A stretch of 64,000 nucleotides of DNA from Morchella semilibera (Eukaryota > Ascomycota > Pezizomycetes > Pezizales > Morchellaceae): positions 1,076,001 through 1,140,000 of the forward strand of contig WBVU01000004.1 in NCBI GenBank assembly GCA_009192285.1, written 5' to 3'. The position numbers and the translations under genes are program-made. Shown here piece by piece: positions 42,301-61,458 of this stretch (positions are counted from its first letter, which is position 1; each line of letters starts with the position of its first letter). Under the pieces are notes generated by a model, which saw nothing but the letters and a program-made list of their open reading frames with translations, ran no database searches and was not told the DNA's origin.

Positions 42301-42720
42301 TAGAGTATGTACGTATAGTACGCCCTCATTGAGAGTGGACTACCTAGCTGGTGTAGACTTTTTTTTATGCAATTCAATGCGCATGTAATGTCTCAACGTC
42401 GCGTTCCTAGCCAACTAAAAGCCCCACATTAAAAAGTATTGTCTACATGTATGTTAGTGTCACACCGACTCACACGGAGTTCCCCTTATCCTTTTCCAAA
42501 CCTGCTTAATTCATATACATACATACATCGCTGCCCTCAAGTCTACCCATACCACTTTCAACACACAAAGATACGGAATCCAAGAGAGGGAAAAAAAAAA
42601 AAAAAAAAAATCACACCTTCAGTACATTTCACTCGCATCGATCCATCCGCCCAGCAATTTACTGAGTTTGTCTTCATCCCTTTCATCTCACCCCAGGGTA
42701 GCCCTTATAATCGGAACTCC
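36332..42720. other. Gene-poor region, 6.4 kb
   Basis: No supported protein gene. It contains a perfect inverted repeat (37231-37302), a G-tract (37743-37759), C-tracts near 41985 and 42138, a 20-A tract in the leader of the next gene (42591-42610) and TACATGTA palindromes. The frames at 38868-39113 and 40402-40716 show nothing recognisable. Confidence 0.5.
37231..37302. repeat. Perfect 20-bp inverted repeat, 32-nt loop
   Basis: AAGTGATCAGAATCTGATAA at 37231-37250 is exactly complementary to 37283-37302. Each arm also contains the near-palindromic core ATCAGAATCTGAT. Confidence 0.95.
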
Positions 42721-45214
42721 ATGGCAGGTCCTGGTACTGGTGGTAGTAAGGCATCACGCAAGAAAGCAGCGCCCCCAGCACTTCCGCGCTGCACTCACAT
42801 AATCCAGTTTTACGAAGCCGAGTGTTTTTTATACGATGCCGTTTCGAAATTTATTCTTCCCTCGTTCTTCAGTACAGAAAACGCTGCTATTATCATTGCC
42901 ACGCGGCAGCATCTTGATGGGCTCGAGGCTCATCTAAGAGAGCAGAATCTTGCACCCGGACTTCTTAAGGAGCGCGGCCAACTAATTCTTGTGGATGCGG
43001 ATGCTTTATTACCAACGCTCCTGAACGGAGATAAAGTCGATGGCCAGGCATTCGAGGCCTATTTTGGGAAGGTTTTCCAGGATGTTCGGAAGCAGTATCC
43101 AAGGATTCTCGCTTATGGAGAATTGGTCAACATTCTCTGTGAACGTGGATCACACTTACTAGCTCATGAACTGGAGCAGGTATGGGAGCGTTTCCTAGCG
43201 GCTAATGGAAAGGATGCATCGCTCCTCTGTGGGTACGATATGTCTGCTTTCGAGGCGGATGGTCTTAGCGATGTTTTCCAACAAATCTGTCTGTCTCATT
43301 CTCATGTAGTCCCTGGTGAGAAGAAATACCCACTTCTAGGCGACTCACAAGATCGAGATACCATTGTCGCAATGCTTCAGCAACAAACTAGATGTTTAGA
43401 GGCAGAAGTCGTTCGTCGCAAGATTTCGGAAGCAGCGCTGCAGTCAACGCTGGACCACTTTTCAACAAAAGCAATTGAGAATAATACACAACCCCCGGAT
43501 CCGAGTGGACATCAAGGCTCAGTCCCTGTGGGTATATGTGGGAGAACCTCTTTCGAGGGACGGAGTCAATATTTTGTCAACGAACGTTTCTGCGAGATAT
43601 CCGGTCTGCAAGATTATCGAATACGGCCAGACGGTAATTGGTTAAGCGCCGTACATCATCTAGACAGAGAACGTGTCTCTAGGTTCTTTGCATTTGAAGA
43701 TGGGAGATTGCGAAAGCAAGATTATCGCTTCGTTCATTCGAATGGGGATGTTCGTTGGGTGTCTGGAGAGTTCACTGTGAACGTGTACGGATATGTTCAC
43801 ACAATCGTTGATATCACCCACGCAAAAAGCCAACAAGCTCAGCGAAGCAATATGATTGGCAACCAAAGGATGCAAAATTGCGGCGCCGAGTATACAAATC
43901 AGCAGAAACAAAATCAATTCACAGATGCCAATCACCCAAGTGGAGATGATAGCAGTGTAAATTATACCGAGAATTCCTTCGTAAGAGGTGATCTGCAGAA
44001 CTCAGATGAAGCATTACAGGTAGGTATTAACGAACACCTCGTCTTTCTGAACTTGAACTGATCCCCTTAGACAATTTCTAGCGAGCAAAATCGACGTGTA
44101 ACGGGTGATCGCATCAGAGCCGAATCCGAAAACATTGCTCGGCTTTTGAGCGATATTGCTAAAGACGATAGTCTCCCGCAACATTCGTTTAGTTTTCCAA
44201 CTATTAAAACTCACATGGATAAGCTTCAGGCTTGGTATAGTTGTCTGCCTGGGCCACTTGCTCTCAATATGGTCACACTCGATCACTCGATCACACAGCC
44301 ACAGAAAGCAACTATGCTCCAGGCCTACTGCGCATATTTGAGATCCATCGTTATTCTTACTCGCCGTGTTTTGCTTAAAGTAGCCAATACTGCGACGCGA
44401 TCGAAATGTCCGCAGGAAAATGGATCACTCGAGGTTTTTTATGCCAACAAATGTATTGGCGCAGCAAGGGGACTGTGCAAAGTTCTCAACATGCTGTTTG
44501 AAGGGGATAGACAGCAAACAAATGGATGGCTTACTATGTAAGATTTTCTCATCAACTCCCTTTATAAGTTATCTTGTTGGTCATTTCTAACCTGAATACA
44601 GAAGTTCGGCTTTCACAGCATGCATCGTGGTTTTTCTTGATATTTCTCTGCGGCCTGTTGAGGAACCTCCTATCCTTGATGATATCACCGATATCATTCC
44701 AAAATGTATTGGCACACTTAAATTAAGCCCACGCCCAGATCACCAAATCTGCAAACAATACTTAGAGACCTTGATACCATTTTGGATGGCCCTAAAACCA
44801 CCAATACCCTCCGATCCACAATCGCGACGGATCTTATCACCAGATCAGACCTCCCCACAAGCATTGTTGGCACTAGATCACCCGTGGACGAGCACATGGT
44901 CTCTTGGGCAAGCTCTCAACACTACTGATGACCTTCTAAAAATATTGAGGGAACCGTGTGGAGGAGTAGATCATAAAGATTGGATTGCACGTTCATGGGA
45001 TTGGAGGTTTTTACTTCCTACTGATTCTGCTGAAATACGGAATATAGAATCTACCCCTACCTTGAATACGCCCTGGAACAATATTGGAAACAAACGAAAA
45101 GCGAAAAGGCCTAAAGGTGATGACGAGTCATCAAATCACTCACAATCGTCCCACAATTCATCAGGCTCGGGCCGAACATCTGATAGCCGGGATACCCCCC
45201 TTCCCCCTTCATAA
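42721..45214 (+). CDS. MEDS-PAS sensory protein with fungal transcription-factor-like C-terminal region
   Basis: Exons 42721-44019, 44071-44537 and 44602-45214 give 792 aa. Residues ~24-200 match the MEDS (DcmR-type sensory) domain of prokaryotes: THIIQFYE near the start, AAIIIATRQHLDGLEAHL, then ILAYGELVNILCERG and HELEQVWERF. A short coiled-coil-like stretch follows. A PAS fold (~residues 265-370) carries FVNERFCEISGL, QDYRFVHSNGDVRWV and VDITHAK, typical of PAS class 3. From residue ~434 the sequence resembles the middle/C-terminal region of fungal zinc-cluster regulators (PTIKTHMDKLQAWYSCLPGP, then KCIGAARGLCKVL). No zinc cluster is seen, so DNA binding is unproven. The open frame extends upstream to 42439, but that part spans an A20 tract and is better read as leader. 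A sensor-regulator role is inference. Confidence 0.85.
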
Positions 45215-57653: not shown

Positions 57654-58538
57654 CTTCAAGGTCTGCGACACATACGGTATGCGAGGTAGTGAGGTGGGTT
57701 GTGGGTGCGCGTTGCTGTAGACGTGGTTATAGTGGAACATCAAGAGGTGAAGGCTGAGATGGAAGGAGCTACCTAGTATGGTAGGTATTGAGCTCTTATC
57801 ACCTACCAGTCGTGTGTGGGCGAGGGAGTGAAGTGAGGTGAGAGCAGTTCTGTAATGTTTGCTTGCCTTGCCAGTGCAGCTTGCTTCCCTTTTTTGCTTT
57901 TTGCTTTGGTTCAAACAGGGGATACTTTACATCCTACAGGGGTGTGTCGGGAGAGAAGGTGGGTCACCGTGGGTGGCTTTACATGCATGCACAATAGAAT
58001 TGTGGAGGTGTAAGGCCCGCAATGAAGTGAATCACTATTCAGGAGTTTTTCTCTATGCTCTAGTGGCCTGGCGTTTTGAGACCTCAGCGGCGGTTGTCTC
58101 TATGATGCATGTTAATATTCAGCGTGGGTTAGGGTTGTGGTGTAGTACCACATACATGTAGTCCTTAATAAATCAGCCCCCAGCCGCGGTACAGGCGCTT
58201 ACGAGCGAGCAACTGACATTTGGGTATTTTTGTCACAGAAGTTTTGTACCAATCATAAGCACATACATGTAGTATAGTACACAATTAGCATACATGTAAA
58301 GGAAAGAGCCCACGCATTACAATGTCCCCCCGTACTCTAAATTTGTTGAACGAAACGCCCAAAAAAAAAGAAAAGACCTGCAAGACTCCCAGAAAACGTA
58401 GAGAAAAAAAGAAAGCGTAAAACCCAGCCATTAAGCAAATAAGTAAATGAAGACAGCATTACAAAAAAAAAAAGTGTCCAAAGCCAGCCGGACGCGCGAT
58501 TTTCCGCCCCCCCGAAAGCCCTCCTTGTAACCCAAACC
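57654..58538. other. Intergenic, ~0.9 kb
   Basis: Promoter side of the F-box gene and 3' side of the acyltransferase gene. TACATGTA occurs at about 58153, 58264 and 58291. No gene is supported. Confidence 0.45.
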
Positions 58539-59726
58539 CTACAAGTCTTCAAGCACCCTTACCACCTCTTCCATCTCTTTGATATCAAGCCCCGTCGCGC
58601 ACAGAACACTAGGTGGCCCCCCCTTTACCTCTCTGCCGACCAAGTTTTTCCCCACCTTCCCCGGCCCAATGCCCACCCATCTCTCTACACCTTGCACTCT
58701 CTCTAAGTATCCAATGCTGCCCTTCCATTGAACAGTTTCTACTGCCTGCGCTGCCAGGTGCTTCTTCATAGGCTCAACACCTTCATACGGCCTCCCTGTG
58801 GCATTTGCTACCACCTTTTCAAAGCCTGACCGTATCTCCATTTGATCCAACAAGTCTTTGACAACTCTAACCGCTGGGTACATTATATGCGAGTGAAAAG
58901 GAGCGCTAACATTCAACCTAATAGCACGCGGGTCGCTCCCTTTGAATTTCCTCATATAGCACAAGAACGCCTAGATCGCTCTTACATACCCGCTTAGCAC
59001 TATCTACGTTGACGAGTTGATGTTTGCCATCTCGAGAAACTCGTCATCAGGTAGGACCTCTGAATGGATAAAATCGTAGAATTTTCTCATTAAACCCTCC
59101 ATAAGGTTCGGTTCTACCATAATCGCCCACATACCTAGTTCGCCCGGTGTTGCATCGGCGCAGAAGGCCATCTTTTCGCCGCGCCGCCGAACGAGGGTCA
59201 AGGCATCTTCAAGGGAAATGACATCGGCTGCCACGAGCGCAGAAAATTCGCCGAGCGAATGACCAAGAAGATAGTCAAAGTTTGCCGTTCTGAGACCGAA
59301 GTCTTGCTCCAATACGCGTAGGATTGAGATAGAGGTGATCAGAATGGCGGGTTGTGCATTTGAGGTGTGAGTGAGCTCGACACAGGGCCCACCAGAGATT
59401 ATTTTGCGTAACCCAGGACAGGTAGCCTCGAGAACTTCAAGAAGTGGTTTGAGAGTACGTGGGAAGTTCTTTATAAGGGGCGTTAGCATTCCTGGTTTCT
59501 GGGTGCCTTGGCCTGAGTCATATTGCATGTTAGCTTGCTATAAACATAATTATATAACAAGAATAGGAAATAGAAATATGGGCCGTAGGTACCTACCAGG
59601 AAAGAATAAGGCTGTCTTTGGCCTCTGGGCGATAGAGGTGTTTGAGATATATCGGGAAAGACAGGGACGACGGAATGTCTGCACCTGTTTTGAAAGGGCC
59701 GGTATTAACCTTGTTTGGGGGTTCAT
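58539..59726 (-). CDS. MCT1: Malonyl-CoA:ACP transacylase, mitochondrial, with two in-frame UAG codons
   Basis: Loads malonyl groups onto mitochondrial ACP for type II fatty-acid synthesis. Exon 1 (59726-59597) gives an Arg/Ser-rich mitochondrial presequence and TALFFPG. After an 84-nt intron, exon 2 continues QGTQKPGM, PAILITSISILRVL, the nucleophile motif GHSLGEFSAL, NVSAPFHSHIM with the catalytic His, and WVGIGPGKV. One reading frame runs from 59512 to the stop at 58539, but it contains TAG at 59006-59004 and 58973-58971. The residues around both are family-like (NINSST-stop-IVLSG, then ...stop-AFLCYMRKF). An in-frame 57-nt intron (59007-58951: GTAGAT...GAG) would remove both stops, but also the conserved IVLSG. 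The gene may be split, spliced, edited or dead. Confidence 0.8.
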
Positions 59727-61458
59727 GATTCCTAGTTCCTAGTAGGCAGGCGTCTTATTCTGCGGGTGGGGGGTCTGGTGTGGACTAGATCGACGTTTGA
59801 CGGTACGGTACGATATCTCATATCCCTCAGTAGTTGTGGTGGTGGGTGGGGGGGAGGTTGTTTGTTCTCGTTGCGGAATATCCATCGAGTGCTTAGTTGT
59901 GATAATGTTGGAACGGAAGTCTCTCGGCTGTCGGTTGTAGTCGGCCAGACGGATGATTGTTATTATCTTATCAGATCTTGAAGGTGCTAGGGTCGTTTAC
60001 TTGGGGAAACTTAGGCTGTGGACCGCAAACTTTAGACGAATATCCTTCCAGTTTCTAGAAACCACTAAAATACCCGTAGGGGATAAGTACAGTACTTACT
60101 TATGTAAGTATGTCTACACCTCTTACAATATGTATGTACATATATGTATGTATGTACGTCGGTCTACTCTAAATACTTACATGTAAACCTTAGTCCTGTG
60201 AATTGAGCTCTTAGAAGACTACATGTAGTAAGGAAGTCTCATAATTTGTAACCACATAAATATAGCCAAGCCTACAGAGGCCTACAATTTAGATATCACT
60301 ACGCCAGAGGCGCTTAAATACATGTACCTAGCAATTGGGCGTGCGTGACTAGCGATGAGCCCTGTGACGGTCGGTGAGCATGAGAAAGTATCGCTTTACT
60401 ACATGTAATCTAGAGTATGTCTTCGGGCCCAGCCACACAGTAACCCAGCTACCAGGCTCCTCCCTAGCTAGCACTTGCACAACTCAGAGCTGAGGTATTG
60501 TCGGGTGTCATAAGGTAAGCGGACATTCGCATTGTATGGGAACGCAACTTCAAATAATTATTACTCCACAGCCACCAGGGAATTAGGGATGAAAAATCTA
60601 TAGATAGACTCCCTGGTAGTGATAATATACTTAGCTCAAGTGTCGCATCAACAGCGCTACTTTCAAATTTTTGACTTACTGGGTAGTTTTGGTGTCTGCC
60701 CCCGCTTACTTGAGACACCCGACAATACTACATTCCTGTATACGTAGGGGATGGAAGCATACATGTATCTCCGACATGTTTCGAGAAAGGACCCCGACTG
60801 TATGTTAGGTCAAAACAAACCTTCTAGTCGAGGTGTATGTCCTAGTGTCAAAATCTGCCCGCTCCGTAGGGAAAGATAAGGAGAAGGGGGTCAAGTGTCA
60901 ACTGGGACACCCAGGCTTGGAACTAAGGCTTATTTTGACCCCGGAAGGTAGCTCGGAAGGAGCCCCTCCTACAGGAGGGGCTAGAACGAGCCTATATATG
61001 TAAGTAATACATGTATGGCCTATAGGCCTACATTTAGCTGCTAATGTACATGTATTCTACCGGCGTAGTTCGTGGCAGGCAGCAAGCTATTCTACTCGAA
61101 AATGTATATAGCTGCATTGCGTTGGCGTGTCCTCTTTTAGTCCAATAACAGGGCTAATTCAGAGGTAAATCTGGGGATTCCTCATTGGCCCTGTCCACGG
61201 AACTATGTGCGTACTTCATATACGCCCCCACCTGTACTCTAGAATAAAGTACCTACATACATGTGCTTACATTAAGACCCTAAAGGGTTCAATTCAATGC
61301 ATGTATTCCTTTTCTTGTGAATTTTCATCTCCACTCCGCCCGTATATATACTTAGAAGCCTCGAGAGCCCCAGATCCTATTGGCATTACCACCTTTTATA
61401 ACCACTACTCAGGTACCAATATTAGGTCCGTCGTCATCTGAACGAAATATAAACAAGT
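59727..61458. other. Intergenic, 1.7 kb
   Basis: Between the divergent transacylase and P450 genes. TACATGTA is frequent (about 60179, 60219, 60320, 60400, 60762, 61008, 61028). Nothing coding is supported. Confidence 0.5.

Follow-up and report, generated by a model that had tools for sequence, protein, structure and literature searches.

Why does the MCT1-like gene of a morel, whose reading frame otherwise looks like that of its family, carry two TAG codons ahead of its catalytic-type histidine? The enzyme, a mitochondrial malonyl-CoA:ACP transacylase, is required for respiration that depends on lipoate. To address this question, we examined the gene in the window (the whole stretch of DNA that was analyzed, 64,000 nucleotides) and in the genome assembly from which the window comes, which we took to be that of strain M10M26, named Morchella crassipes in PMC7014384. 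The available text of that paper describes M10M26 as a monospore isolate whose genome was sequenced on Illumina and PacBio platforms, with mycelium/sclerotium RNA-seq from the parent M10 (PMC7014384). The reads are public (SRR10230725-SRR10230733).

The MCT1-like frame is open and family-like except for two TAG codons

The MCT1/FabD gene lies on the minus strand (59726-58539) and has a single 84-nt intron (Table 1). The joined exons give 1104 nt in frame from an ATG at 59726, and in this 367-codon model stops fall at codons 213, 224 and 368, the last being the normal stop, which is also a TAG (58541-58539). Besides the two internal TAGs, the frame contains neither a TAA nor a TGA and has no frameshift. 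The in-register frame with two TAGs that the original prediction described is thus confirmed, and sequence alignments show that collinearity with FabD holds on both flanks of the stops.

When exon 2, its two stops written as X, was compared with the PDB, 63 sequences matched at E <=0.001, the best being FabD 3qat (E 5.9e-32), and human MCAT 2c2n was among the matches (E 1.4e-16). The NCBIfam model TIGR00128 (fabD) aligned with residues 1-293 at 163.2 bits (E 8.9e-48), below its cutoff of 260.9, in a library that serves bacteria and archaea and in which a fungal mitochondrial protein may score short of the cutoff. Pfam PF00698 covers just the N-terminal part (the first 118 residues), whether or not the stops are read through. 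Read through the stops, the Ser of GHSLG, the Arg and the His of PFHS all stand in one collinear frame, and the catalytic motifs flank the stops on both sides, both when the frame is aligned to four FabD sequences (A1) and in a 46-row alignment of the morel frame with 45 of 80 bacterial loci (A2). The histidine of PFHS, H206, is presumably the catalytic one, as in the FabD family. Alignment A2 has 25 invariant columns, distributed before and after the stops. Highly conserved columns, defined as those in which at least 90% of the 80 bacterial homologues agree, number 57; 48 of these are kept in the morel frame, and of the nine that are not, four precede and five follow the first stop.

As a second view of the frame, the structure of exon 2, translated with Gln at the TAGs, was predicted by an alignment-based AlphaFold run (mean pLDDT 93.5, pTM 0.92), and a Foldseek search with this read-through model returned FabD 3qat at the top (TMq 0.86) and human MCAT 2c2n at rank 10. 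Read with TAG as Gln, the frame is confidently predicted to have the FabD fold. We read the product as Mct1 with a probable mitochondrial address; the presequence in exon 1 is presumed from its position and not from a predictor.

Table 1. Features of the MCT1-like gene and its surroundings. Coordinates are those of the window; A1 and A2 are the alignments described in the text.
Feature	Coordinates	Strand	Remarks
MCT1-like exon 1	59597..59726	-	Start codon; presumed mitochondrial presequence; ends ...ALFFPG
Intron 1, 84 nt	59513..59596	-	GTAGGT...CTAAC...CAG; exon joining gives FFPGQGTQ in frame, FabD-like
MCT1-like exon 2	58539..59512	-	Closes with the normal TAG stop
GHSLG nucleophile motif	59250..59264	-	Ser85 in exon-2 numbering; from FabD alignments
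Catalytic-type His codon, PFHS motif	58893..58895	-	3' of both stops; H206 invariant in A1 and A2
First in-frame TAG	59004..59006	-	Codon 213; position 169 in exon-2 numbering; near-invariant Gln site
Second in-frame TAG	58971..58973	-	Codon 224; position 180 in exon-2 numbering; mostly Glu/Asp site
Hairpin with second UAG in the loop	58963..58983	-	7-bp stem, 7-nt loop; four of five flank lengths
MITE-like dispersed element, 234 bp	60495..60728	-	Terminal inverted repeats of 15 bp (GTATTGTCGGGTGTC); ~770 bp 5' of the MCT1 ATG

The first TAG most simply replaces a glutamine codon

Glutamine had been expected at the first site, and 77 of the 80 bacterial homologues have Gln there, with Asn in the remaining 3. 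The second site is more varied among the same homologues (Glu 49, Asp 12, Ala 6, Gln 5, Asn 4, Lys 2, Ile 2). In the AlphaFold model, position 169 opens a strand (169-175) and position 180 lies within a helix (176-187). The residues of the relatives at these sites, together with the modeled strand and helix, indicate that the stretch is family coding sequence and that the first change was from Gln. The first TAG would most simply have come from CAG, and the second, less surely, probably from CAG as well. The implied CAG to TAG change fits a C-to-T transition in CpA context, the direction proposed in the original prediction, which appears likely with the former base read from the relatives. The two TAGs are unusually close, 33 nt apart within 11 codons. 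Codons one transition away from a stop are still present in the frame (5 CAG, 7 CAA, 1 CGA and 3 TGG); that both stops are TAG says little on its own.

The interrupted gene is the only MCT1 found, and its pathway seems to be retained

A check of the genome for a second MCT1, as had been proposed, found none by protein, DNA or Pfam search across 56,756,124 bases in 23 contigs, one of them of 7,341,407. PF00698 matched two other places only; by eye they read as a FAS beta subunit and a single polyketide synthase, which is few acyltransferase domains for a filamentous ascomycete.

The other genes of the pathway were sought in the same assembly. A lipB match scored above its cutoff, and the matches to lipA, CEM1-like (fabF) and ACP were clear or fair (best E 2.0e-77, 2.6e-93 and 4.6e-8, respectively), with exon-by-exon scores below the cutoffs; the stops inside the CEM1 and ACP matches look by eye like intron sequence. 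From these matches, the lipoate/mitochondrial fatty acid pathway seems to be retained in the genome, and with lipA-, lipB-, CEM1- and ACP-like genes in place, losing MCT1 would be expected to be harmful.

A proposed recent loss-of-function allele

We hypothesize, with somewhat less than even confidence, that the sole MCT1 found is a recent loss-of-function allele that arose through two C-to-T changes. Both changes would have hit the coding strand, at a spacing of 33 nt, and made TAG of a conserved Gln codon and of a nearby codon. Translation would then stop after residue 212, ahead of the catalytic-type His, and no active malonyl transferase would be made from the gene. The strain would survive without the enzyme by alternative respiration, by leaky activity or on lipoate from the medium, and in the wild mycelium M10 the null allele may be sheltered by another nucleus type. 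This hypothesis builds on the two stops in the assembly, on the failure of the searches to find a second copy, on a frame that is in other respects open and like that of the family and on the predicted FabD fold upon read-through; it supposes in addition that the stops are present in the DNA, derive from Gln codons and are not recoded, and that the strain is viable without the enzyme.

Support for a null allele comes from the searches described below, in which we saw no TAG reassignment in the Hsp70/CCT matches counted, no CTA tRNA in the loci scanned, no fitting single intron and no substitutions in the stretches compared between duplicate copies in the assembly. Against it, the strain can be grown from a single spore although the one MCT1 known in it is interrupted, the frame, without frameshift, TAA or TGA and with 48 of 57 conserved columns kept, looks like that of a working gene, and the two stops are unusually close. 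The strongest point against a plain null is the apparent retention of the pathway. Inactivation of the mitochondrial ACP of Neurospora reportedly leads to a respiratory-defective phenotype, going by the title of a paper, which makes survival of a filamentous fungus conceivable. According to the part of PMC4991935 available, the lipoate-synthesis genes of Saccharomyces cerevisiae are nonessential for viability and ACP1 is essential, and mitochondrial ACP is essential in Yarrowia, as reported there. A two-fragment Mct1, made by reinitiation at an ATG near 58955, was also considered.

Possible RNA editing at the two UAG codons

We regard it as unlikely that morels keep a single, needed gene with two UAGs and recode it, either by hyphal A-to-I editing to Trp or by the reading of UAG as Gln. 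Correction of the premature stops by A-to-I editing in general, in which UAG would become UGG (Trp) and full-length Mct1 would be made, perhaps in a stage-specific manner, is in our judgment unlikely. The substrate for the editing that the original prediction had raised is there, since both sites are UAG with a U at -1, which is favored in fungal editing, and the A of the second UAG sits in the loop of a 7-bp/7-nt hairpin in four of five flank lengths. Other observations weaken the proposal: the A of the first UAG is paired in four of five flank lengths and in a loop in one of five, leaving only one A in a stable loop, and editing would give Trp, which occurs at neither site in the 80 relatives. 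Throughout the window, a comparable hairpin was found for 46 of the 1915 TAGs, and 760 fall in a hairpin loop of any kind.

In the accessible text of PMC11156358, fungal A-to-I editing is described as preferring U at -1 and hairpin loops and as correcting premature UAGs. Editing is also reported, in the portions of the papers available, from Pyronema, a Pezizomycete like Morchella (PMC11156358, PMC5381528), and for a premature UAG in CHE1 in hyphae of Fusarium (PMC11169179). Fungal editing as reported is, however, mainly a sexual-stage process, while the MCT1 enzyme should be needed in growth, and the editable UAGs of the zao genes have been proposed to stem from G-to-A changes. Among the papers listed that pair Morchella with RNA editing, no title names editing in morels, and the passages available from two of them report none. 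The stops are not yet evidence of recoding.

A possible assembly error

It is decidedly unlikely that the stops are assembly errors and that the reads hold sense codons at one or both sites. The methods of the genome paper, in the text available, name no polishing step and cite an earlier paper for detail (PMC7014384), and some chromosomes stand twice in the assembly, both of which leave room for error. The doubled chromosomes, however, also gave us a means of seeing what kind of error is present. Five stretches (5958, 4692, 4617, 3171 and 3098 aligned bases; as two overlap, 18,582 bases are distinct) were compared between copies and showed 6 gap openings and 0 substitutions over this 18.6 kb of distinct sequence, a comparison in which the copies are perhaps not independent and to which MCT1, being single, contributes no copy to check. 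The error type visible is the indel, and the MCT1 gene has none. An assembly error, which had been named as a possibility, is disfavored by these redundant copies differing by indels and not by substitutions, by the absence of a frameshift from exon 2 and by the improbability of two substitution errors 33 nt apart that both yield TAG.

In the contig pairs C9/C10 and C12/C13, the stretches compared are identical save for a few indels, and the chromosomes seem to be duplicated; C21/C22 may be a further duplicate pair. Doubled chromosomes would inflate the genome size and the gene counts.

Possible splicing

The stops could also be removed by splicing (59007-58951, 57 nt, or 59007-58918, 90 nt) to give a shorter protein, a stretch of exon having turned intron. 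The GT at 59007 would be a product of the C-to-T mutation presumed for the first site, several GT..AG pairs lie in frame, and there is a strong donor-like GTATGTAAG at 58989. We nevertheless hold this explanation to be improbable. The 57-nt model has a weak donor (GTAGAT) and a GAG acceptor, and the five listed models that start from 59007 lack a branch-like motif. The strong donor at 58989 is downstream of the first TAG; it could remove the second stop as a 72-nt in-frame piece but never the first. When in-frame single-intron models that remove both stops were enumerated (38-400 nt, with a branch-like motif sought 8-45 nt upstream), a branch-like motif together with a GTNNG donor and a YAG acceptor occurred in 0 of 198; narrower limits gave 44 in-frame models. 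Two-intron models were more numerous (545 open), and the 24 with passable ends all need a middle exon of 10-18 nt and would lose much of the small subdomain. Furthermore, the stretch is homologous coding sequence, and the expectation that a 57-nt intron would cost conserved residues holds in the model, where it would take away the whole of strand 169-175 and the greater part of helix 176-187.

Possible read-through and TAG reassignment

Reading of UAG as Gln by a near-cognate tRNA-Gln or an unseen suppressor, at a level sufficient for function, strikes us as very improbable. This explanation agrees with the conserved Gln at the first site, with the Gln found at the second in 5 of 80 relatives and with the confident read-through fold from AlphaFold. 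However, two stops multiply the loss from read-through, and the 7204 codons of other genes that were counted contain no exon TAG by inspection. To our knowledge, UAG-AUA and UAG-GCG are not among the known leaky contexts. No excess of the CTA-anticodon tRNA pattern was observed (34 and 35 matches versus 38 and 38 in the reversed control). In the 30 of these 69 pattern loci scanned with ARAGORN, a scan that would miss intron-bearing or oddly shaped tRNAs, there was no CTA tRNA; tRNA-Val(aac) was returned three times and tRNA-Ala once.

A general reassignment of TAG was rejected on the Hsp70/CCT genes, whose 7204 codons include 170 CAG and 53 CAA and whose 15 stops lie in introns or splice sites by inspection. 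These counts come from 28 of 50 matches, the others being 18 CCT matches without a locus and 4 Hsp70 matches that are duplicates on C10/C13; among the 18 uncounted CCT matches, five list stops, one of which (C19:4969847) is intron by inspection. Reassignment of TAG across the genome is thus excluded, and a rare suppressor is possible.

Repeat-induced point mutation and the sequence around MCT1

Repeat-induced point mutation (RIP), which had been suggested for the C-to-T changes, was rejected as the source of the stops: the composition is ordinary (composite RIP index -0.13 and -0.38 over 58501-59500, against a window median of -0.22), MCT1 is single copy and a nearby repeat family has no CpA excess. 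In this family, counted in eight copies and the copy in the window, C-to-T changes were found at 13 of 295 CpA, 13 of 212 CpT, 11 of 183 CpC and 8 of 132 CpG sites. The repeat is a weak test of RIP, as the usual length threshold of the process is longer than this 234-bp MITE-like element. The element has 30 further matches in the genome (E <=1e-10, 70-85% identity), some of them on duplicated contigs. Among the papers listed that mention both Morchella and repeat-induced point mutation, no title contains either term.

The highest composite RIP index among the 500-base bins of the window (+0.84) belongs to 60001-60500; simple repeats there, of the TACATGTA/ATACATA type, may account for it. Elsewhere in the window, an open frame of 542 residues (42433-44058) has a MEDS domain, from a family that takes its name from methanogen/methylotroph sensory proteins, and after it a PAS fold.

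Discussion

If the stops are real and uncorrected, as in the loss-of-function allele that we tentatively favor, the monospore culture of an aerobic fungus lives without the one mitochondrial malonyl transferase known in it, and the extent to which filamentous fungi need mitochondrial fatty acid synthesis would come into question. If instead the stops are corrected, recoding in morels would affect a housekeeping gene and so go further than the editing reported to date, which is mainly sexual-stage, and lipoylation and respiration in the morel would depend on a recoding step. With two named bases and public reads, the question is directly testable.

The morel frame shares with the Mct1/MCAT/FabD family (PF00698, TIGR00128) its collinearity, the GHSLG, Arg and PFHS motifs and the predicted fold, and differs from it in the two in-frame TAGs before the catalytic-type His and in a TIGR00128 score below the cutoff. 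With the edited PUK1, CHE1 and zao genes of Fusarium and Neurospora, it has in common a UAG with U at -1 in a conserved frame, and the second morel UAG lies in a predicted hairpin loop with four of five flank lengths; like PUK1, morel MCT1 has two UAGs. Unlike these genes, it encodes a housekeeping enzyme, and at the first site its relatives carry Gln where editing would give Trp. For the loss-of-function allele, the nearest likeness comes from laboratory-evolved yeast with an MCT1 nonsense allele, in which C292T creates a stop at codon 98, according to the available part of PMC4959659. In both cases MCT1 of a living fungus carries a nonsense change, C-to-T in yeast and presumably so in the morel, whereas the yeast allele arose in a fermenting organism under laboratory evolution and has one stop, and the morel gene has two (PMC4959659).
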